From: Spelaeicoccus albus
GTDB taxonomy: Bacteria; Actinomycetota; Actinomycetes; Actinomycetales; Brevibacteriaceae
Assembly (NCBI RefSeq): GCF_013409065.1
Contig: NZ_JACBZP010000001.1
Span: 1,240,001 to 1,304,000 of the forward strand
Reading direction: 5' to 3'
Length of the DNA stretch: 64,000 nt
Positions 5,777 through 39,495 of the stretch are shown one piece after another. The position numbers and the translations under genes were made by a program. The notes beneath the pieces were generated by a model. The model did no database searches and was not told the DNA's origin. It saw only the letters and a program-made list of their open reading frames with translations. Position 1 is the first letter of the stretch; each line of letters opens with the position of its first letter.

Positions 5777-7384
5777 GTGATCGACACCATCCCGACGATT
5801 TTCCGAGCAGCATCGATCGTGGCGCAGGCCGGTAGCGGTCCCGAACCGGAAGCGATGGCCGTGGCGGACGAATTGGTCGTGGCCATCGGCACGGTACCCG
5901 AGTTGACGGACCGTTTCCCGGACGCTCCAGTGGTCGATTTCGGGGAAGCGACGATAGTGCCGGGGTTCAACGACGGCCATGCGCATATCGCCATGACTGC
6001 CGAGGACATCTTGCACAGCGATCTGTCGTACGACGCCGTGAAAACAATGGACGAACTGCTGACGGCAGTTACCGAAGCAGCGCGGGAAACGCCGGACGGC
6101 GAGTGGGTGCGCGGCAGCAGGTTCGATGACCAAAAGACGGGTATGTTCACGCGCGACGATCTGGACCGGGTCGTGCCGGGGCACCCGGTCTTAGTCACTC
6201 ACGTGGCCGGGCACTGGGGCGTCGTGAACTCGAAGGCCCTCGAACTGCTGGGAATCGACGAGTCCTCCGAGGATCCGCCGGGCGGTCAGTACGACAGGTA
6301 TCCGGACGGCCGCCTGAACGGCAGGCTCGTCGAGCGGGCGCTGATGAACGTCTCGCTGCCGGCGACCGCTCACGAAGGGCCGGGCGTGCCGGCCAGCAGC
6401 TTCGCCGACTTGCAACGCGGCGTGGCCAAGGTGATCCGCAGATGGAACGCGGCAGGGCTGACGTCGGTGTGCGACGCGCTGGTGGGGCCGGACGACGTCC
6501 GGATGTTCTCGGCTGCGCGGCATGCCGGCAACCTGACCATGCGGATTGGAATGCTGCTGTCGATCGATCATTACGACAAGGCCGTGCAGCTGGGCGTCGG
6601 AAGCGGCTTCGGTGACGACTATCTGCGGCTTGTCGGGGTGAAGGCGTTCTTGGACGGCGCGATCGGCGGACGGACCTGCCTGCTCTCCGAGCCGTTCACG
6701 GGTACCGACTACCGCGGCCTGCAGACGACGTCGACCGATGACTTGAACCGGAATGTCGCCCGCGTGCACGCCGACGGCAATCGGATAGGAGTACACGCCA
6801 ACGGCGACGAGGCGATCCGGCTGGTACTGGATGCGTTCGAGACCGCGCAGCGGGAAATGCCCAGACCCGGGCTGCGGCATCGGATCGAGCATTGCAGCGT
6901 GATCGACGACGAGATAGTGGCACGGATGAAGGCCCTGGACGCCATTGCCGTGCCGTTCGCGGGATACGCGGCGTATCACGGCGGCGCATTGAACGGATGG
7001 TACGGCGAGGAGCGGACGAGCCGCATGTTCGCGCACCGGACCCTGCTGGACGCCGGGCTGACGGTGGCCGCGTCGTCGGACTACCCGTGCGGGCCGTTCC
7101 AGCCGCTGGTCGGCATGCAGTCGATGGTCACCCGCACCGGCATGGACGATGGCGCGGTCGTCGGCGGCAATCAGCGGATCAGCGCTGCCGAGGCGCTCAA
7201 AGTGTTCACGATCGGATCGGCCGATGCCAGCGGCGACGCTGCCGTCAAGGGCCGGTTGGCGCCGGGATATCTGGCGGATTTCACGGTGCTGGGCGAGAAC
7301 CCGCTCGAGGCCGATCCGATGGGGATCGCCGACATCGACGTGGAGGCGACGTACGTCGGGGGAACCGTCGTCCACGAGCGCTAA
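5777..7384 (+). CDS. YtcJ-like metal-dependent amidohydrolase
   Basis: A 535-residue member of the amidohydrolase superfamily, YtcJ/AepA type. The start is GTG 5777 behind a GAGAGGA ribosome site, 55 bases after the C45 hydrolase. Metal ligands are recognisable: the HxH of NDGHAHIAM near residue 71, later histidines in GVHANGDEA and RIEHCSV, and an aspartate in SSDYPCGP. The protein is probably cytoplasmic and cleaves C-N bonds in a small amide or cyclic amide. It closes the DUF3311-SSS-C45 operon, so it may act on the imported substrate or on a C45 product. Confidence 0.88.
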   Translation: MIDTIPTIFRAASIVAQAGSGPEPEAMAVADELVVAIGTVPELTDRFPDAPVVDFGEATIVPGFNDGHAHIAMTAEDILHSDLSYDAVKTMDELLTAVTEAARETPDGEWVRGSRFDDQKTGMFTRDDLDRVVPGHPVLVTHVAGHWGVVNSKALELLGIDESSEDPPGGQYDRYPDGRLNGRLVERALMNVSLPATAHEGPGVPASSFADLQRGVAKVIRRWNAAGLTSVCDALVGPDDVRMFSAARHAGNLTMRIGMLLSIDHYDKAVQLGVGSGFGDDYLRLVGVKAFLDGAIGGRTCLLSEPFTGTDYRGLQTTSTDDLNRNVARVHADGNRIGVHANGDEAIRLVLDAFETAQREMPRPGLRHRIEHCSVIDDEIVARMKALDAIAVPFAGYAAYHGGALNGWYGEERTSRMFAHRTLLDAGLTVAASSDYPCGPFQPLVGMQSMVTRTGMDDGAVVGGNQRISAAEALKVFTIGSADASGDAAVKGRLAPGYLADFTVLGENPLEADPMGIADIDVEATYVGGTVVHER

Positions 7385-7423: not shown

Positions 7424-7846
7424 CTAACCGGCGGTGCCGTACGTGTGAGTGAGCCGTAGATGCAAGGGCAGCCGTCGCTCGGCCACCATCGCTTGGCGGA
7501 ACTCGGTCCAGTCGGGATGCTCGCCTTGCACGCGGCGGTAAATGTCGACCAGATCGTCGGTGCTCGCGTCGTCCGGATTCTTGCACTCGGGGAGCAGACC
7601 GGCGTCCGCCTCCGCTACGGCGTAGATCCAGGGCCCTTCGCCGTGCACGAGAAGTGTGGCGCGCGGATCTCGTCGTAGATTAGCCGTCTTGGCGCGATCG
7701 GCAGTGATGGACACGCGAACCAGATCGGTGTCGCGGTCGTACGCGTAGGTGACGACGGACATCTGCGGCCTGCCATTTCGGCGGATTGTCGCAAGCGTGA
7801 CGAAGTGCTGAGACTCGATGACGTCGCGGATCGGATCGGCGGCCAT
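7424..7846 (-). CDS. PPOX-class F420-dependent flavin-fold oxidoreductase
   Basis: A 140-residue split-barrel protein of the pyridoxamine-5-phosphate-oxidase superfamily, in the subgroup usually annotated as F420-dependent (TIGR03618-like). The N-terminus FVTLATIRRNGRPQMSVV, the strand VRVSITADRAKTANLRRDP and the LLVHGEGPWIYA segment give the expected order for cofactor binding. Such proteins reduce small unsaturated metabolites or bind F420. It is alone on the minus strand, convergent with the amidohydrolase and separated from the next minus gene by the second palindrome. Actual cofactor and substrate are inferred from family only. Confidence 0.85.
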   Translation of the reverse strand: MAADPIRDVIESQHFVTLATIRRNGRPQMSVVTYAYDRDTDLVRVSITADRAKTANLRRDPRATLLVHGEGPWIYAVAEADAGLLPECKNPDDASTDDLVDIYRRVQGEHPDWTEFRQAMVAERRLPLHLRLTHTYGTAG

Positions 7847-7925: not shown

Positions 7926-8016
7926 CGAGTGGTGGCGAATGGCTGCGAAATCGGCGATTTCGCAGCCATTCGCCACCACTCGGGGAGGGGGAGCAGCCAT
8001 TCGCCACCACTCGGCG
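7926..8016. repeat. Perfect 57-nt palindrome plus trailing half copy (copy 2)
   Basis: Bases 7926-7953 and 7955-7982 are perfect inverted complements (28-nt arms) around one G, identical to the core of the palindrome at 2581-2645. A half copy with the same arm sequence lies at 7993-8016, in the same orientation and at similar spacing as in copy 1. Here it lies between two minus-strand genes, 14 bases before the end of the amidohydrolase gene, so on the minus strand it could also serve as a transcription terminator. Confidence 0.9.
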
Positions 8017-30668: not shown

Positions 30669-31073
30669 TTACTCGGGTGAGGCACTCCCCTCGTACAGCG
30701 GAAGATCGCGCACGAGTTGCGTGAGTTCGGCGTTCTGGGCGTAGCGTCGGCGGTGCAGGTCCGCGATTTTCTTCTCGATCTCGGGGTCTGGATCGTCCGT
30801 GATGTCGAAGGAGTGGAACTTTTCAAGCAGCGGAAGGCCTATTCGGTCCGTGTGTGCGTGAGACGGGGCCATCAGGTACTCCCAGTAGCCTTCGAGATCT
30901 TCGATCGCGAAGACTGCGCCAAACTCGAAGTCGCCGCCGAAGTCGGGCCCGACGACGTAGCTTTTCACCGCATCGATGGACGCTCCTTGGTTGCGGAGGC
31001 TGTCGAGAGCCTCCTCGCGCTGCTCCGGCGTGACGTCCTTCTTCATGGTGAAACGGTTGCCGTGGTAGATCAT
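30669..31073 (-). CDS. Dabb (stress-responsive alpha/beta barrel) domain protein
   Basis: A 134-residue protein starting at ATG 31073, overlapping the MFS stop by 4 bases. Residues 1-95 form the dimeric alpha/beta barrel seen in Dabb proteins: MIYHGNRFTMKKDVTPEQRE, DFGGDFEFGAVFAIED, then YLMAPSHAHTDRIGLPLLEKF. Members include polyketide cyclase-like and detoxifying proteins. The C-terminal 40 residues form an extra charged helix not part of the core domain. Co-translation with an efflux pump suggests a role in handling a toxic or aromatic compound. Confidence 0.85.
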   Translation of the reverse strand: MIYHGNRFTMKKDVTPEQREEALDSLRNQGASIDAVKSYVVGPDFGGDFEFGAVFAIEDLEGYWEYLMAPSHAHTDRIGLPLLEKFHSFDITDDPDPEIEKKIADLHRRRYAQNAELTQLVRDLPLYEGSASPE

Positions 31074-32284
31074 CGTTCTGTCCTTTCGTTTTTCTGGTGA
31101 GTGCGGCGACCGACAGTGGCGACGGTCGTCGCGAGGATGGCCAATATGGCCGCGGCCGCGAAGAAGGCGCCGCGGATTCCGATCGCACCGATGATGGGTG
31201 CGAGGAGCATGGGTGAGAGGAACTGCCCGCCGAAAATGGCGGCGACCAGGCCTCCGAGCGCGGTGGCGCGTCGCGGGCCTGACACGACGTCGCTCATCCA
31301 CACGTTGAGGTCGGGCACAATGGCGCCGACGCCGATGCCGCCCACCAGCGCTCCCGCGATGACGCCTATTGGCGTCTCGGATCCGCTGGAGCCGATCACG
31401 ATCCAGCCGATCCCGAGCATCAGCAGACTGCCGGCCGCGATGGCGCCGAAGTCGAAGCGACGTCGCAGCGCCGGGAAGAGCAGTGCGCCGACGATCCCGG
31501 TCGCGGTGCTGGCCGCGACGGCAACGCCTGAGAGCACCGGGGGCAGCCCGGCGTGGGCGAGAAGGAACGGTATCTGAGTGGGGGCCATAAAGAACACGGC
31601 CGTGCCGATCACCGCAACGCCCAGCACCAAGGCGACGACCGGAGCCTGCGCGCGGCGAGCGGAATCCGGTGGCGGGGGAGCGGAATCCGGTGGCGCGGGA
31701 GCGATACGGCGGCGCGGCAGCAGAGGAACCGCGAGGGCAAACGGCAGGATGACGACGGCGACTGCATAGAGCGCGAACGGTATGCGCCATCCGAGCGGAG
31801 CCAGGATTCCGGCGAGCGGGAGGAACACGACTCCTCCGAGGCTGGCGAATGCTTGCTGCGCGGCCATCATCCGAGCGCGAGCGGGGCCGTTCCACAGACC
31901 GGCGATGGTCGTGGTGACGGAGGTCATGATCATGCCGCCTGCGATGCCAAGAATGATGCGGGAGGCGAGAAGCGCGACGATTCCGGCTACCCAGAGTCCG
32001 GCGGTCCCGGCGAGGGTATAGGCCGCCATTCCGGCCGCCAGTACCGGGCCGGATCCGATGCGTTGTATGAGGGCGCCGGCGAACGGTGCCGTCACTGCGA
32101 TCGCGGCGGAGGTGAGCGTGACGACCTGACGTACGACCAGGGGAGAAGCGCCGGGAAAGGCTGACTGAATGGCCGGCAGACTCGGCGAAACGATCGCCGC
32201 TGCCATGATCGTGAGGGTCGATGCTGCCAGCAGAACTGCGGTCGCCGCAGGACTGACGCGGCGAGGGACGGCGACTTCTACCAT
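31070..32284 (-). CDS. MFS efflux transporter under TetR control
   Basis: A 404-residue 12-helix MFS protein; start ATG 32284 is chosen because TAAGGAA lies just upstream. The central cytoplasmic loop holds a 7-residue tandem repeat rich in PPDSA (coded at 31658-31699). It is divergent from the TetR gene at 32489 and its leader carries two palindromic sites of that regulator's type, the usual arrangement for a drug or metabolite pump induced by its substrate. It overlaps the Dabb gene by 4 bases. Confidence 0.88.
   Translation of the reverse strand: MVEVAVPRRVSPAATAVLLAASTLTIMAAAIVSPSLPAIQSAFPGASPLVVRQVVTLTSAAIAVTAPFAGALIQRIGSGPVLAAGMAAYTLAGTAGLWVAGIVALLASRIILGIAGGMIMTSVTTTIAGLWNGPARARMMAAQQAFASLGGVVFLPLAGILAPLGWRIPFALYAVAVVILPFALAVPLLPRRRIAPAPPDSAPPPPDSARRAQAPVVALVLGVAVIGTAVFFMAPTQIPFLLAHAGLPPVLSGVAVAASTATGIVGALLFPALRRRFDFGAIAAGSLLMLGIGWIVIGSSGSETPIGVIAGALVGGIGVGAIVPDLNVWMSDVVSGPRRATALGGLVAAIFGGQFLSPMLLAPIIGAIGIRGAFFAAAAILAILATTVATVGRRTHQKNERTER
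31658..31699. repeat. 21-nt tandem repeat inside MFS gene
   Basis: Two nearly identical 21-nt units (31658-31678 and 31679-31699) begin GAGCGGAATCCGGTGGCG, with the start of a third unit following. The repeat is in frame and encodes a heptapeptide repeat in the pump's central loop, so its copy number could vary without breaking the gene. Confidence 0.8.
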
Positions 32285-32373: not shown

Positions 32374-32408
32374 TGAGTGACTGTACACCCACTCATTGAT
32401 GAGATCAA
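32374..32408 (-). promoter_or_regulatory. Predicted MFS operon promoter with overlapping operator b
   Basis: On the minus strand, TTGATC (32408-32403) and TACAGT (32385-32380) are separated by 17 bases, a good -35/-10 pair. The -10 box is inside the palindrome 32374-32395 (TGAGTG at one end, CACTCA at the other, TGTACA in the centre). A repressor bound there would block the promoter. Confidence 0.6.
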
Positions 32409-32452: not shown

Positions 32453-32488
32453 TTGTGCTCACTCAGAGGTGATTGTATAGTCACTCTT
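32453..32488 (+). promoter_or_regulatory. Predicted leaderless TetR promoter with overlapping operator c
   Basis: TTGTGC (32453-32458) and TATAGT (32476-32481) are 17 bases apart. The -10 box ends 7 bases before the ATG at 32489, so transcription should start at or next to the A of ATG; no ribosome site is visible. An operator-like palindrome, GTGATTGTATAGTCAC at its core, covers the -10 box and predicts autorepression. The same arrangement recurs at 38190-38224. Confidence 0.65.
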
Positions 32489-33049
32489 ATGGCATCGACT
32501 GGTTCAACTCTCTCTACTGCCGAATCTCGGCGTCCCGTTGTGATTGCGGCGGCGCTGACCAAGTTCGCGGACGGTGGATTCCACGGAACGACTATCGCCG
32601 ATGTTGCGCGGGAGGCGAAGATTTCTCCGGCGTACGTGTTCAAGTTATTTCCCGGTAAGGCGAGTCTGTTCGCTGCGGCGTTGGAGGCGTGTTACGAGGA
32701 AATCGTCCAGACGTTGGGGCAGAGTGCGGAGATCGCCGACCAGAGCCCCGCGGCGATCCTTGATGCTATGGGCGGTGCGTACGCCGAGTTGATCGGTGAT
32801 CGGCGATTGCTGATGATGCAGGTGCATGCGCAGTCCGTCGCCGATGTTCCCGAGATCGGGCAGGTGTTGCGGAGCGGAATTGCTCACGTGACGACGTTCG
32901 CTCAGGAACGCTCCGGCGGCAATGACGACGAGGTTCAGCAGTTCATGGCCTATGGTCAGCTCTGTCATTTGATCGTCACCGCCGGCGTCGATGGCATCTC
33001 CGACCGGTGGGCCGAAGTTCTGGGGCACGGTATTCGGCACCCGGGCTGA
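32489..33049 (+). CDS. TetR-family repressor, probably autoregulated
   Basis: A 186-residue TetR regulator. The N-terminal DNA-binding domain (about residues 12-58) has the HTH GTTIADVAREAKISPAYVFK followed by LFPGKASLF. The rest is a helical ligand-binding domain. ATG 32489 follows a leaderless-type promoter overlapped by a palindromic operator. It is divergent from the MFS-Dabb-SDR operon, whose promoter carries similar palindromes, so it most likely represses that operon and itself until an inducer is bound. A decayed paralogue with the same upstream region is at 38084-38188. Confidence 0.93.
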   Translation: MASTGSTLSTAESRRPVVIAAALTKFADGGFHGTTIADVAREAKISPAYVFKLFPGKASLFAAALEACYEEIVQTLGQSAEIADQSPAAILDAMGGAYAELIGDRRLLMMQVHAQSVADVPEIGQVLRSGIAHVTTFAQERSGGNDDEVQQFMAYGQLCHLIVTAGVDGISDRWAEVLGHGIRHPG

Positions 33050-33103
33050 TTGCGCAGCTCGCCTGAGGGAATAGAAGCCCGTGTTCCTTGTCGACGTTAG
33101 TGA

Positions 33104-33117
33104 GTGAACAATCACTT
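33104..33117. promoter_or_regulatory. Palindromic operator site d (4-nt spacing)
   Basis: AGTGAACAATCACT has AGTGA/TCACT arms and, with its flanks (TGAGTGAA-AATCACTTT), differs by about one base from the minus-strand reading of site a at 32311-32324. It lies 28 bases before the short frame at 33146, suggesting that frame's promoter is or was controlled by the same TetR protein. Confidence 0.55.
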
Positions 33118-33145: not shown

Positions 33146-33289
33146 ATGACCAATCCACAACAGCAGTACGCGTCGGTGCAAAGCCTGTCAAAGGACTTGT
33201 CCGCCACATGGCTCGTGCTGATCACGGTTGCCGCCGGTGCAGCGTTGCTTCGCTTCTGCCTCGGTGATCGGGGCGGGCGTCGTCGTTGA
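33146..33289 (+). CDS. 47-residue frame, likely 5' remnant of a lost TetR-regulated gene
   Basis: ATG 33146 follows a strong GAGGAG ribosome site and an operator-like palindrome, the hallmarks of a real gene start. The product is only 47 residues, with a polar N-terminus (MTNPQQQYASVQSLSKDL), a short hydrophobic stretch and a basic end (GDRGGRRR). From about 33188 it runs antisense to the end of the alpha/beta hydrolase. The likeliest reading is the beginning of a gene whose remainder was removed by a deletion or inversion. A functional small peptide cannot be ruled out. Confidence 0.45.
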   Translation: MTNPQQQYASVQSLSKDLSATWLVLITVAAGAALLRFCLGDRGGRRR

Positions 33290-34171
33290 CATGAACGGCA
33301 CCAGTTCGTGCAACAGTTGCTCGGGCTGTTCCTCCGAAACGAAATGGCCACTGGCCTTCAGTGTCACAGTGGTGAGGTCGTGCGTGACGGCACGTAGGTT
33401 GTCGCCAAGGCGCCTACCGACAGCGAGTTCACCCCCGATGGTCATGGTCGGTACCGTCAGGTTTCCCCCAGCCTCAGTCCAGCTGCGGTTGGCGCGACCG
33501 TCCTCGAGCAGCGTGCGGTAATGCTCGAAACCGCAGCGCAGCGCCTCCCGTCCGGTGTAGGCGGCGGCGATCTCGTCGAGGACGTCGGCCGTAAACGGCT
33601 CGTGATTGGCGGCAAGGTGATCGAACCACCAGCCGAAGAACTCCCGTTCATGTCCGTCGAGTAGCAATTCAGGCACCTCACGGGTCATGAAAAGCCCGAA
33701 ATGCCAACGCCCGCCCCGGGCCACGTCCATGGCTTCTTCCAGTCCGAAGCCGGGCACCGCAAGCTCGAGGAGAGCCAGGCGTTCGATCTCTTCCTAGTGG
33801 CGCCGCGCCCACGAGAAAGCGATCATGCCGCCGATGTCGTGGCCGACCACGCGAACCTTGTCCCGTATTCCCAAGTGACGCATCAGACTACGAATGTCGT
33901 CACTCTGATTGTCTTTGTCGTATCCGTGCGCGGCACGTTGCGAGTTCCCCGCCCCTCGCAGGTCCGGGGCGACCACCGTGTATCCCGCGTGAGCGAGCGG
34001 GCTCAGCAGGAAGCGCCACGCGAGAGCTGTCTGGGGCCAGCCGTGCAGCAACACCACCGGCGGACCGTCGCCGCCGATCAGGTAGCTGAGCTCAACATCA
34101 TTCACTTCGGCGCGACGGCGCACGAATCCGGTGGGTATTTTTTCGTCGATGTAATCGTCGGTCACGTTCAT
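33188..34171 (-). pseudogene. Epoxide-hydrolase-like alpha/beta hydrolase broken by an in-frame amber codon
   Basis: The minus-strand frame from ATG 34171 (behind AGAAGGG) encodes an alpha/beta hydrolase: VVLLHGWPQTALAW (oxyanion HGWP), then GHDIGG with the nucleophile Asp. Codon 126 (33796-33794) is TAG. The same frame then continues uninterrupted to 33188 with the family's remaining parts: EERLALLELAVPGFG-like text, cap domain, and the catalytic His in ASGHFVSEEQPE. So one base change separates this from an intact 327-residue enzyme. The last ~15 residues (GGNRDQHEPCGGQVL) look foreign and are antisense to the frame at 33146. Confidence 0.85.
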
Positions 34172-34232
34172 TACCCTTCTTTGGGGTCGACCTGCTGTTG
34201 GTGATGGTGTGCGGGTATGACACACGGTCGGG

Positions 34233-35993: not shown

Positions 35994-36610
35994 CAGGAAT
36001 TCTCCAATTCGGGTGGTCCCGGGGTCAGGCCCGCGAGGAAGATCTGCAGCTGGCGGTGCAATTCACGAGCGATTTGATCGGGATCGCTGGAAAGAGGTTG
36101 CGCGAGCAAGGCGCCGAAAAACACGATGTCCGCCGCCGCGACGTCGGCACGTACGGTGCGATCGGAGCGCCCGCGCTCGAGAACCTTGTCGATGCCGGCG
36201 TAAACCTCGGATTCAAGGTTCCGCGACAATTCCGTGAGCTCCGCCGGTCCGCCGTGCAGAGGTAGAACGAGTTGATCACGGTGGGAGATGGTGTCTTCGA
36301 GGAACGCTTCAAGCGCATCGATCGCCGAATGGCCGGTTGCGGCTGCCTTGTCGACGGCGTCTTTCACCAGCCGAAATGAGCGCTCGGTCAGGGCCATCAG
36401 CAGTGCATCTCGGGTGGGGTAATTGCGGTAAAGAGTGCCGACGCCAACGCCGGCCTCACTCGCAATCGTGGCCATTGGCACCTGGCGTCCCTCGCGCAAC
36501 ATCGACGTCACGGCTGCTGCGAGGACCCGTTCCTGATTCGCTATCGCGTCCCGACGGACTCGGTATTGTTCCCGTTCGGGCTTGTCGTCTGCTGCGTTAT
36601 TCGTCGTCAT
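35993..36610 (-). CDS. TetR-family regulator within oxidoreductase operon
   Basis: A 205-residue TetR regulator whose N-terminal HTH is VPMATIASEAGVGVGTLYRNYPTRDALLMAL (given in part; about residues 42-72). It is the second gene of a tightly packed minus-strand operon, overlapping the NmrA-like gene by 4 bases and the SDR gene by one base. The position means it controls its own operon if it acts locally. It is not closely related to the TetR protein at 32489, and I see no copy of that protein's palindromes upstream of this operon. Confidence 0.92.
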   Translation of the reverse strand: MTTNNAADDKPEREQYRVRRDAIANQERVLAAAVTSMLREGRQVPMATIASEAGVGVGTLYRNYPTRDALLMALTERSFRLVKDAVDKAAATGHSAIDALEAFLEDTISHRDQLVLPLHGGPAELTELSRNLESEVYAGIDKVLERGRSDRTVRADVAAADIVFFGALLAQPLSSDPDQIARELHRQLQIFLAGLTPGPPELENS

Positions 36611-37473
36611 TTCCCGGCCTCGATCCAGGTGCGCAGGTCGTATAAGTCAGGGACGAGTTCTCGGCCGAGACCGACGTCGGCTCGATATGCCGGAAGCGTC
36701 GCAAACCAGGTGAACATCGCTTTCTGATCCGCGTCGGGCAAGACGTCGACGGGCACCGGCTCGTAACGCGCCGGGATTCCGCGGGCTCGTGCAAATGCTG
36801 CCGCCATCTCTTCTCCCGTCAGCTCGTCCCCGGCAAGCTCGACCGCGCCGCCCGGAATTCGCTCGGGGTACAAGAGGGCCGCGGCAGCTACCCGCCCGAT
36901 GTCGCGAGTCGCGACCATCTGCAATGGCACATCGCCGGGCATCGGGAGCCGAATCACTAACTTGTCTTCCATCACGGGGCGGGAGAACGACGCGAAATTG
37001 TCCATGAAGAACGTGGGCCGAACAAACGTTGTCCGCAGCCCTAACGTCCCGAGGTATTCTTCAACGCGCCGTTTGCTTTCAAAGTGAGGGATTCCGGTAG
37101 CACGCTCGGCGCCGCCGACGGAGCTGTAGACCACCCGGGCCACGCCCGCTGCTTGAGCGGCATCCCCGATCGCCCGACCATGGGCCACTTCGCCTTCGGT
37201 TCCTCCCGGGCCGGTGAACGTCGTCATCGCGAACACTGCACCGGCTCCGCGGAACGCCTTGACAAGCGTGTCCGAGCTGTCGAGGTCAGCGGTGACCACG
37301 TCGGCCCCGCTACGAGCCAACTGTCGCGCTCGGGGCGAGTTCGGGTCTCGGACGAGAGCCCGGACCGGCGCTCCTTTTTCCAGAAGTGCCGAGACTACGG
37401 CTCTGCCTTGCTGGCCGGTGGCTCCGACGACAGCAAGCGGGCCGCGCGTCGTCGTGTTGTCGTAGATGTCCAT
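36607..37473 (-). CDS. NmrA-like NAD(P)-binding protein
   Basis: A 288-residue atypical SDR of the NmrA/HSCARG group. The cofactor motif is GATGQQGRAVVSALL near the N-terminus, followed by VRALVRDPNS; the usual YxxxK catalytic pair is not evident, as expected for this group, whose members act as redox sensors or quinone/isoflavone-type reductases. ATG 37473 is preferred over an upstream TTG because a GGAGA site is suitably placed. It is the first gene of the operon running to 33.2 kb. The leader to its right is AT-rich for this genome. Confidence 0.88.
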   Translation of the reverse strand: MDIYDNTTTRGPLAVVGATGQQGRAVVSALLEKGAPVRALVRDPNSPRARQLARSGADVVTADLDSSDTLVKAFRGAGAVFAMTTFTGPGGTEGEVAHGRAIGDAAQAAGVARVVYSSVGGAERATGIPHFESKRRVEEYLGTLGLRTTFVRPTFFMDNFASFSRPVMEDKLVIRLPMPGDVPLQMVATRDIGRVAAAALLYPERIPGGAVELAGDELTGEEMAAAFARARGIPARYEPVPVDVLPDADQKAMFTWFATLPAYRADVGLGRELVPDLYDLRTWIEAGK

Positions 37474-37706
37474 GGTGTTGGTCTCCAATCGCTCTGTTCC
37501 GTCGCTGGTTCCGCGACTATCAGTCAGTAGAAGACCCTATGCGGACGAAATATTCCAGAAAATACCGACCAAATACAAAAATTCGTGGAATCGCGCCTGA
37601 CATGGGGGGTAATTACGGACATATTAATCCGTTTATGGCTGACGAAGGTCGCTACCGCTTTCGGAAGGTCGCGCTGGTGGACCTCGGTGGTGTGCCTTGC
37701 CGGCGC

Positions 37707-37744
37707 CGTGCTTCGTCAGGGATGCCGCGCCCCGACGAAGCACG
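37707..37744. terminator. Hairpin terminator after the small-protein genes
   Basis: CGTGCTTCGTC (37707-37717) pairs with GACGAAGCACG (37734-37744), with additional G-C pairs inside the loop. It lies 7 bases beyond the stop of the 60-residue gene on the minus strand and probably ends that transcript. Confidence 0.65.
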
Positions 37745-37750
37745 CCGGCT

Positions 37751-37933
37751 TTAGTTCCAGAGCCCGAGCATGAAGAAGATGCTGAGCACGAGAATTCCGA
37801 AAGCGATCCACCAGGCGGTCTTTTCTCCGGTCCACCGGGCCGGCGGCCGTCTCGTGCTCTGCGCCGGTTCGTGACTTCGAGTTGAGTCGCTCTGCGGCGA
37901 GTAATTCGGGATTGTGTGGTTTTGGGGTTCCAT
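37751..37933 (-). CDS. Small single-helix membrane protein (60 residues)
   Basis: A 60-residue protein with a polar, proline-rich N-terminal half and one membrane helix at the C-terminus (TGEKTAWWIAFGILVLSIFF, ending MLGLWN). The AGGAGA ribosome site 8 bases before ATG 37933 is among the best in the region, which argues for real translation. It follows a 27-residue hydrophobic frame by 33 bases and precedes a hairpin terminator. I do not recognise a family. Such pairs of tiny membrane proteins are sometimes subunits of transporters encoded elsewhere. Confidence 0.6.
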   Translation of the reverse strand: MEPQNHTIPNYSPQSDSTRSHEPAQSTRRPPARWTGEKTAWWIAFGILVLSIFFMLGLWN

Positions 37934-37966
37934 GATGTTTCTCCTGGGCTCGAATTGGGTCGATAG

Positions 37967-38050
37967 TTACTGCCACTGCGTGAACATGGCGATGGCGAGC
38001 AGTGCAAGCGGGATCAGGGCGATCCAGCGCATGGTGATTTCGTTCGACAT
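37967..38050 (-). CDS. Tiny hydrophobic protein (27 residues)
   Basis: ATG 38050, or ATG 38053 directly before it, follows a perfect AAGGAGG ribosome site; spacing favours 38050. The product has a short start (MSNEITMRW), one hydrophobic helix (IALIPLALLAIAMF) and the end TQWQ. It resembles in size the small accessory subunits of secondary transporters, but no specific match can be claimed. It lies just after the TetR remnant, whose promoter is the only evident one upstream. Confidence 0.55.
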   Translation of the reverse strand: MSNEITMRWIALIPLALLAIAMFTQWQ

Positions 38051-38083
38051 CATTCCTCCTTCCTTAAATAAATGTATGGTCAC

Positions 38084-38188
38084 TCACTCTTTTGCGTAGG
38101 CTCCGCCCATCGTGCGCAAGATCTCCGTCGGGGACTGCGCCTTGGCGTCGTCCGCGTTGGTGGAAAGCGCTGGGTTTTACGTTGCCAT
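38084..38188 (-). pseudogene. Decayed paralogue of the TetR gene at 32489 (internal deletion)
   Basis: On the minus strand the start ATGGCAACG mirrors ATGGCATCG of the intact TetR gene, with an almost identical upstream region. A stop follows after three codons. The remaining text in the same frame, to TGA 38086-38084, reads NADDAKAQSPTEILRTMGGA then YAKE, which aligns with ADQSPAAILDAMGGAYAEL in the middle of the intact TetR. So the HTH part and everything after the alignment are missing. It is a clear gene remnant, not a functional regulator. Confidence 0.75.
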
Positions 38189-38189
38189 A

Positions 38190-38224
38190 TGAGTGACTAT
38201 ACAGTCACTCATCGAAGAAGGCAA
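38190..38224 (-). promoter_or_regulatory. Intact leaderless-type promoter with operator f upstream of TetR remnant
   Basis: Read on the minus strand, TTGCCT (38224-38219) and TATAGT (38201-38196) are 17 bases apart and the -10 box ends 7 bases before the remnant's ATG, exactly as at 32453-32488. A near-perfect palindrome, GAGTGACTATACAGTCACTC (38191-38210), overlaps the -10 box. It could now drive the two small membrane-protein genes. Confidence 0.65.
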
Positions 38225-38364
38225 CAGAGAGCATTGCCCGACTTGGGGTCGTTGCAGCCGGCGTTCGGTGGGACTCTGTTGTCGGCAAGGGTGTTCACGC
38301 TGCCTGAATTTCACAGGGCGGACTTGCGCTTTCAAAGTGTGAATTTTTGTGGCAATCTGCAGAC

Positions 38365-39495
38365 ATGACACTGCCACATGACGACATCGATCCCGACGGC
38401 CTCCTCGAATACTCGGTGGTTTTCACCGATCGATCTTTGAACCACATGTCGCAGCGGTTCGTCGGTGTCATGCAGGACTTGATCGGCATCCTGCGCGAGG
38501 CCTACAACGCGCACACCGTCGCCGTCGTCCCGGGCGGCGGCACATACGGAATGGAGTCGATTGCACGCCAGCTCGCCACCGGGCGCCGCTGCCTGATCGT
38601 GCGCAACGGCCTGTTCTCCTTCCGCTGGTCGCAGATTCTGGACGCAGGCACGATCGCGGACGACGTAACGCTCTGCAAGGCGCGCCCCACTAGCGATACG
38701 CATCAGGCGCCGTGGGCGCCCGCTCCGCTGGACGACGTATGCGAGCGGATTCGCGAGCAGAAGCCGGACGTCGTGTTTGCCCCGCACGTCGAAACCGCCT
38801 CGGGAATCCAGCTCCCTGACGACTACTTGCGCGGACTCGCCGAAGCCGTGCACGAGGTCGGCGGGACTTTCGTGCTCGACTGCGTGGCCTCCGGCGCGCT
38901 GTGGGTCGACATGGGCGACATCGGAGTCGATGTGCTGCTCACGGCTCCGCAAAAGGGCTGGAGCGGAACTCCGTGCGCGGCCTACGTCATGCTCAGCGAA
39001 GCCGGACGGAACGCGGTGCAGGCCGGAACGTCGACCAGTTTCTCCATGGATCTGGCCAAGTGGCTGTCGATCACCGAGGCCTACATCGACGGCAAGACTC
39101 CTTATCACGCGACAATGCCCACCGATTCGCTCGCGCACAATGTCGAGTTGATGCGTGAGGCTCGCGACGTCGGGTTCGAAAAGCTGCGTGCAGCCCAGAT
39201 CGAGCTGGGTACGCGGGTCCGCGCGGCGCTGGCCGACTCCGGGCTGCCGTCGGTCGCCGTCGATGACTACGCATCGCCGACAGTGGTCGTCGTCCATACC
39301 GACGACCCGGACCTGCACAGTGGGGCGGCGTTCAAGAAGGTCGGCCTGCAGGTCGCTGCCGGCGTACCGCTGCAATGCGGCGAGCCCGAGGACTTCTCGA
39401 CGTTCCGTATGGGCCTCTTCGGTCTCGACAAGCTGACAGACGTCGACGGCACGGTTGCCCGACTCAACGACGCACTGACAAAGCTCCGGGGCTGA
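38365..39495 (+). CDS. Class V aminotransferase (alanine-glyoxylate/serine-pyruvate type)
   Basis: A 376-residue PLP enzyme of the alanine-glyoxylate/serine-pyruvate aminotransferase group. The PLP lysine is in LLTAPQKGWSGTPCAAY (about residue 198), preceded by the cofactor-binding DCVASGALWVDM (aspartate about 173). A glycine-rich PGGGTYGMESIARQL near residue 60 binds the phosphate. The C-terminal substrate-binding Arg lies in FRMGLFGLD. ATG 38365 has no good ribosome site. It stands alone between the TetR remnant and the DinB gene. Amino-donor and acceptor are not determined. Confidence 0.9.
   Translation: MTLPHDDIDPDGLLEYSVVFTDRSLNHMSQRFVGVMQDLIGILREAYNAHTVAVVPGGGTYGMESIARQLATGRRCLIVRNGLFSFRWSQILDAGTIADDVTLCKARPTSDTHQAPWAPAPLDDVCERIREQKPDVVFAPHVETASGIQLPDDYLRGLAEAVHEVGGTFVLDCVASGALWVDMGDIGVDVLLTAPQKGWSGTPCAAYVMLSEAGRNAVQAGTSTSFSMDLAKWLSITEAYIDGKTPYHATMPTDSLAHNVELMREARDVGFEKLRAAQIELGTRVRAALADSGLPSVAVDDYASPTVVVVHTDDPDLHSGAAFKKVGLQVAAGVPLQCGEPEDFSTFRMGLFGLDKLTDVDGTVARLNDALTKLRG

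Follow-up and report, generated by a model that had tools for sequence, protein, structure and literature searches.

What do two very small genes do behind the promoter of a regulator that has itself collapsed? The locus lies in a 64,000-nt stretch of the Spelaeicoccus albus genome (the window; bare positions below refer to it). A known arrangement is a TetR/AcrR-family regulator that represses itself through an operator over its own promoter and is linked to a detoxification operon. A sequence-only reading of the window had proposed that the promoter of a dead TetR copy was captured to run two adjacent genes for tiny membrane proteins, here called A and B, under TetR control. Whether the small genes are newcomers or inherited members of the regulator's operon can be approached by comparing the locus with its relatives, and the comparison points to inheritance.

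Collapse of a TetR Gene Next to Its Promoter and Operator

Alignment with seven intact TetR genes bears out the claim that this copy is dead and its coding part reduced to a fragment. The wreck, on the minus strand at 38084-38188, comprises about 33 codons (reading MAT*NPALSTNADDAKAQSPTEILRTMGGAYAKE*), the fourth being an in-frame TAA. What remains corresponds to roughly the first 10 codons, codons 80-99 or so and a few others; the HTH region and everything past about codon 100, down to an operator-like element designated op2, are missing. With its HTH codons deleted it has no TetR_N HTH, and it is properly called a relic rather than a TetR. Its alignment to the TetR gene of G053, a genome of the same family, scores 30.0, against a maximum of 17.0 in 300 dinucleotide shuffles. 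The score against the window's own intact TetR is barely above the shuffles (17.5, shuffle maximum 16.5), so the wreck descends from a gene nearer the G053 type.

The surviving tetR promoter (38196-38224, minus strand) consists of a -35 box TTGCCT (38224-38219) and a -10 box TATAGT (38201-38196) separated by a 17-nt spacer, and matches 9 of 12 consensus bases. Overlapping it is the operator op1 (38190-38211, TGAGTGACTATACAGTCACTCA), identified by a pattern search for GAGTGA-N8-TCACTC, in which both arms are perfect (12/12 bases). Both elements are thus intact, as the sequence-only reading had it. Its further claim of an almost base-for-base match with the intact gene holds for the layout but not for the letters, given that op1 and the operator over the intact TetR promoter have 17 of 20 core bases in common and the flanks differ. 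A promoter scan of both strands of 37480-38400 returned two promoter-like sites, compared with a mean of 0.4 in shuffles. Since the deletion took the spacer between TetR and op2 as well, the old TetR promoter is the sole promoter-like site found on the minus strand, from which we infer that A and B are read from it with the intact TetR controlling it in trans. A leaderless start at the old ATG, position 38188, is predicted. The small genes' own operator, op2 (38070-38089, before gene A; identified by alignment with other loci), has a deviating right half-site in the window, ACATTT, where the other aligned loci read [T/A]CACT[C/T].

With up to three mismatches, the operator pattern is found at two places in the window (four strand matches) and in none of 100 shuffles. 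Perfect arms occur at two places in the 4.03-Mb genome, both at TetR wrecks, whereas at up to two mismatches there are 68 matches per strand genome-wide against 40 for a backward control, so that weaker sites say little. The second wreck lies outside the window at G000:C1:2515620-2515790 (L072 about 7621-7791), with its operator at G000:C1:2515624; the start codon and two large pieces are lost, and an NmrA-family gene follows directly. It scores 26.0 against the window's intact TetR and 16.0 against G053 (shuffle maxima 20.0 and 21.5, respectively). Two further alignments, to an L056 TetR target that extended several kb too far, were left out of account. Selection on op1 was also sought in a better retention of the operator than of the coding remnant, and the difference is not significant (10/10 invariant arm positions versus 33/38 invariant positions, p 0.29). 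With a similar outcome at the second wreck (10/10 versus 47/55, p 0.24), selection on the operators is not proven.

An Intact TetR as Candidate Regulator in trans

The candidate trans regulator of op1 is an intact TetR gene at 32489-33049 (plus strand), the only one of its subfamily found in the genome, where the runners-up are no more than short, weak matches. Its product carries TetR_N (PF00440, 43.5 bits versus a cut-off of 24) and is a member of the subfamily, with 66-67% identity over 186 residues to the TetRs of G053, L056 and L060, and 44-62% identity to those of G755, G605 and G239. Judged by eye, its promoter, TTGTGC-17-TATAGT, has the same layout as that of the wreck and lies 7 nt before its ATG. 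One operator is placed over this promoter (32467-32486, AGGTGATTGTATAGTCACTC), another, located by pattern search, between the gene and a divergent MFS gene (32374-32395), and an op2-like one after the gene (33098-33117, TAGTGAGTGAACAATCACTT). The operators of the intact TetR share half-sites with op1, and we propose repression in trans. Op1 matches the operator of a living regulator, and such control is plausible.

The divergent MFS gene (31073-32284, minus strand) encodes a protein that shares 44% identity with the MFS encoded in G755's TetR-A-B-MFS operon. The best relative of the G053 MFS in this genome is 43% identical, compared with 67-73% for the MFS proteins of five other named operons, indicating that the operon's usual transporter is gone from the genome; a relocated copy is ruled out by the same figure. 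At the locus itself, a tblastn search of 37401-38400 with two operon MFS proteins gave nothing convincing (best E 2.2).

Some further features of the window were recorded. After the op2-like operator of the intact TetR comes a 47-aa ORF (33146-33289, plus strand) whose ribosome site is good and whose product has a single hydrophobic stretch; no support for it as a relative of B was found. An alpha/beta-hydrolase gene (33188-34225, minus strand) apparently has a frame break near 33757-33797 and falls into two ORFs, of which only the first matches Abhydrolase_1, at its N-terminal third. Elsewhere, an 89-nt repeat occurs at 2585-2673 and 7926-8014 (91% identical), with an inverted repeat beginning CGAGTGGTGGCGAATGG.

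Two Small Genes Encoding Putative Membrane Proteins

Gene A (37967-38050, minus strand) encodes a 27-residue protein, MSNEITMRWIALIPLALLAIAMFTQWQ, behind the Shine-Dalgarno sequence AAGGAGG (38061-38055). Gene B (37751-37933, minus strand) encodes a 60-residue protein ending in WTGEKTAWWIAFGILVLSIFFMLGLWN, with the Shine-Dalgarno-like AGGAGA upstream. By eye, one membrane helix is predicted in A and one in B, and the two share a layout in which a charged N-terminal part is followed by the hydrophobic helix and, directly after it, the C-terminus, which in both closes with W plus a polar residue. Under the positive-inside rule, A and B are predicted to be N-in/C-out.

We define family A by a length of 26-27 residues, an R-W-x-x-L-x-P-L core, a later fixed F and W, and a gene beside B; and family B by a length of 29-60 residues, an E-[KR]-x-x-W core, one helix, a C-terminal W[ND], and a gene beside A. 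The window's A has all the features of its family and the window's B those of its own, the core of which begins with EQ in G370. No Pfam or NCBIfam family, known small transporter subunits included, reached its cut-off with A or B; below the cut-offs, B matched the LPXTG, LAXTG, invert_tail and EMP24 models and A none. Compared with five relatives, the window's A has a pN/pS of 0.31-0.49 and the core of its B one of 0.21-0.54; among the relatives themselves, with complete operons, the ranges are 0.19-0.55 and 0.33-0.78. All values come from 27 (A) and 26 (B core) codons and pool constraint from before and after the collapse. The window's A and B are thus coding-like, with pN/pS within the range of complete operons. 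Chance ORFs are ruled out by the conservation of A, B and their order. The small membrane-protein genes with good ribosome sites are therefore real, being conserved both as proteins and with their neighbors, and on the conservation of the small frames, where the sequence-only reading had staked its case, the outcome favors the genes.

The profiles of A and B give a gap-free alignment of 26 positions (E 5.4e-5, probability 66%). For controls, columns were permuted separately among the first nine and among the remainder; one of 200 attained the 22.5 of the real alignment, which the reversed profile approached with 18.5. In view of these controls, the alignment is no more than suggestive of a common origin of A and B. 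A literature search gave nothing resembling the A-B pair among abstract openings, which does not imply absence from print; the pair is old and conserved and, within that scope, apparently undescribed.

Directly after B, folding predicts a strong hairpin (37699-37749, minus strand), and a hairpin also follows B in all five relatives folded, with differing stem sequences. Having no T run, it is absent from the list of a consensus terminator scan. The terminator proposed earlier for this position thus has its strong stem (37749-37699) but lacks the T run, with the scan silent; the hairpin may act as one. The next gene downstream encodes an NmrA-family NAD(P)-binding protein (36607-37488, minus strand) and occupies the position that the MFS gene has in most relatives.

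Conservation of the TetR-A-B Operon

Among 60 genomes of the family, B has one clear relative, in G053 (E 5.8e-12; runner-up E 3e-4), where the gene order is intact TetR, A, B, MFS. A scan of named genomes yielded six loci, in Microbacterium sp. MPKO10, Brevibacterium sp. 239c, Microbacterium ulmi, Labedella populi, Labedella phragmitis and Actinotalea ferrariae. Each of these carries TetR, the op2 element, A, B and MFS in that order, with A frameshifted in L. populi; the Brevibacterium sp. 239c locus is the same sequence as G053 and is counted once. The frame of the L. populi gene (L059 about 5810-5892) is broken by a two-base difference from L. phragmitis, which is either real or an assembly error.

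The sampling was extended to 396 genomes of the order, 10 of which contain A at E 0.01 or better. The match is strong (<1e-5) in five (G000, G053, G239, G385 and G370), and in all five B adjoins A. Hits for B at E 0.01 or better came from 21 genomes; the other 16, without A hits and not read one by one, are taken as chance. In a class sample of 394 genomes, 12 have B at E 0.001 or better and 17 have A at E 0.01 or better. The two are adjacent in G000, G239, G605 and G755; G514 has hits for both, on different contigs, and in G613 B is present with A's place masked. The remaining class hits are weak, and the locus count rests on those read. In G628 (L115, reverse strand near 1488-1560) a relic resembling A has a stop codon in place of the conserved W, and no B was recognised.

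Besides the window, 12 loci were thus considered (G053, L056, L058, L059, L060, L061, G385, G239, G370, G605, G755 and G613). The same kind of TetR stands upstream of the pair in 11 of them, the exception being G370, and an MFS gene follows downstream in nine, so that homologs of the pair beside transporters, which the sequence-only reading had looked to, do exist. G385, G239, G605, G613 and G755 have related layouts. In G605 and G613 an epimerase-type (extended SDR-like) gene takes the place of the MFS gene, none of which was recognised within the approximately 6 kb read on either side; in G370 an epimerase-type gene lies upstream of the pair, and no MFS was recognised nearby. A Polyketide_cyc2-family gene is inserted between TetR and A in G385; the hydrophobic tail of its product (L037, 1811-2413, minus strand), FVLALSLWD, resembles the end of B. 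Taken together, these arrangements argue that TetR-A-B is an old operon, of which A and B are ancestral members.

Strong TetR matches (E 1e-40 or better) were present in 14 of 287 genomes of the order, and 11 TetR loci besides those of G000, G053 and G239 were read. At four of these (G300, G150, G115 and G202) TetR and then an operator-like element are followed by MFS without A or B, and at four others (G171, G210, G223 and G176; one Pfam-checked) by a dehydrogenase gene; G127, G132 and G246 show no clear target. The occurrence of TetR and MFS without A and B marks the pair as a cassette, present or absent. Furthermore, as the transporter is also found where the pair is missing, and the pair can instead accompany a reductase-like gene, A and B resemble a separable module rather than an obligate transporter subunit.

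Plasmids and viruses were considered as carriers of B and ruled out, as a search of 72,556 plasmid records with the B of L056 gave no match at E 0.01, and patterns derived from the B alignment gave none in viral contigs. TetR relatives at E <1e-20 are present on five plasmid records. Four were read; in three (Nocardia and two Deinococcus) a zinc-type or medium-chain dehydrogenase gene comes next, and in the fourth a hypothetical gene. Neither A nor B was detected when about 1.2 kb behind each of these four TetRs was scanned for motifs.

Origin and Present Role of the Locus

On balance, we favor the view that the locus represents the remains of a TetR-A-B-effector operon, in which A and B have come under the old TetR promoter and the paralogous TetR. 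Transcription would start at that promoter, leaderless at 38188, cross a relic leader of about 140 nt and then yield A and B, the transcript ending at, or being shielded by, the hairpin that follows B. Repression of op1 in trans would come from the intact TetR (32489-33049), which would leave op1 on binding its ligand. Less firmly, A and B, perhaps related by descent, would each cross the membrane once as a helix oriented N-in/C-out, and would together constitute a small membrane accessory module aiding whichever detoxifying effector the same TetR controls, which here could be the MFS at 31073-32284 and NmrA-family reductases. We thus hypothesize that A and B are an accessory module for detoxification systems under this TetR subfamily; the label detoxification derives from the neighbors (MFS, NmrA, dehydrogenase and epimerase families) and from general knowledge of TetR operons. 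More doubtful is the fuller proposal of a TetR-paired two-helix module with variable effectors, whose halves, A and B, are paralogues, and which outlived its regulator and transporter and was kept under the paralogous TetR. On this proposal, the second wreck with perfect arms suggests that regulon rewiring by regulator collapse happened twice.

In an alternative scenario, the TetR-A-B segment is simply decaying, and A and B are not yet broken. The TetR body and the MFS gene are lost and the right arm of op2 is altered, the collapse may be recent given how many invariant positions the remnant still holds (33/38), and the frameshifted A of L. populi together with the broken A of G628 indicates that the pair can be lost. 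However, the frames, ribosome sites, promoter, op1 and hairpin of the window are all intact, and pN/pS stays within the range of complete operons, although that constraint is undated. We regard plain decay as rather unlikely, though it deserves to be taken seriously. It is improbable that the two proteins serve only as subunits of the operon's MFS, and are hence useless here without it: an MFS gene is indeed next to the pair at 9 of the 12 other loci, but the same TetR subfamily and MFS type do without A and B in G300, G150, G115 and G202, and the pair keeps company with an epimerase-type gene in G605 and G613, with no MFS recognised, and lies beside such a gene in G370. As for capture in the strict sense, in which the TetR promoter, once its gene had collapsed, took over small genes from elsewhere, the distance of about 140 nt that the deletion left between promoter and A would suit it. 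Nevertheless, 11 of the 12 other loci have a TetR of this kind ahead of the pair, which contradicts the capture put forward in the sequence-only reading and leaves such an origin barely credible.

The inherited operon that we favor resembles other TetR/AcrR operons in having a TetR_N regulator, an operator over its own promoter and an MFS or oxidoreductase target. It differs from them in that the regulator has collapsed with promoter and operator left in place, and in the two tiny membrane proteins encoded between regulator and effector. Small proteins encoded beside secondary transporters include MetS and the MFS small subunit. A and B are similar to such subunits in size (about 30-60 residues), in their one helix and in a gene placed beside a transporter gene, but they fall below every Pfam and NCBIfam cut-off and their effector gene varies. 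AcrZ is reported to be a small protein of the AcrB efflux pump, linked to multidrug efflux (PMC7267776). The likeness to this small efflux-linked membrane protein is one of kind only; A and B form a pair in a regulator's operon and are not tied to one transporter.

Proteins of 27 and of 29-60 residues are easily missed by annotation. Being tied to one TetR subfamily while their effectors change, A and B would represent a testable, portable membrane accessory module. Moreover, the two wrecks in one genome indicate that an operator can persist after the loss of its regulator gene, and that the genes behind it may pass to a paralogous regulator.
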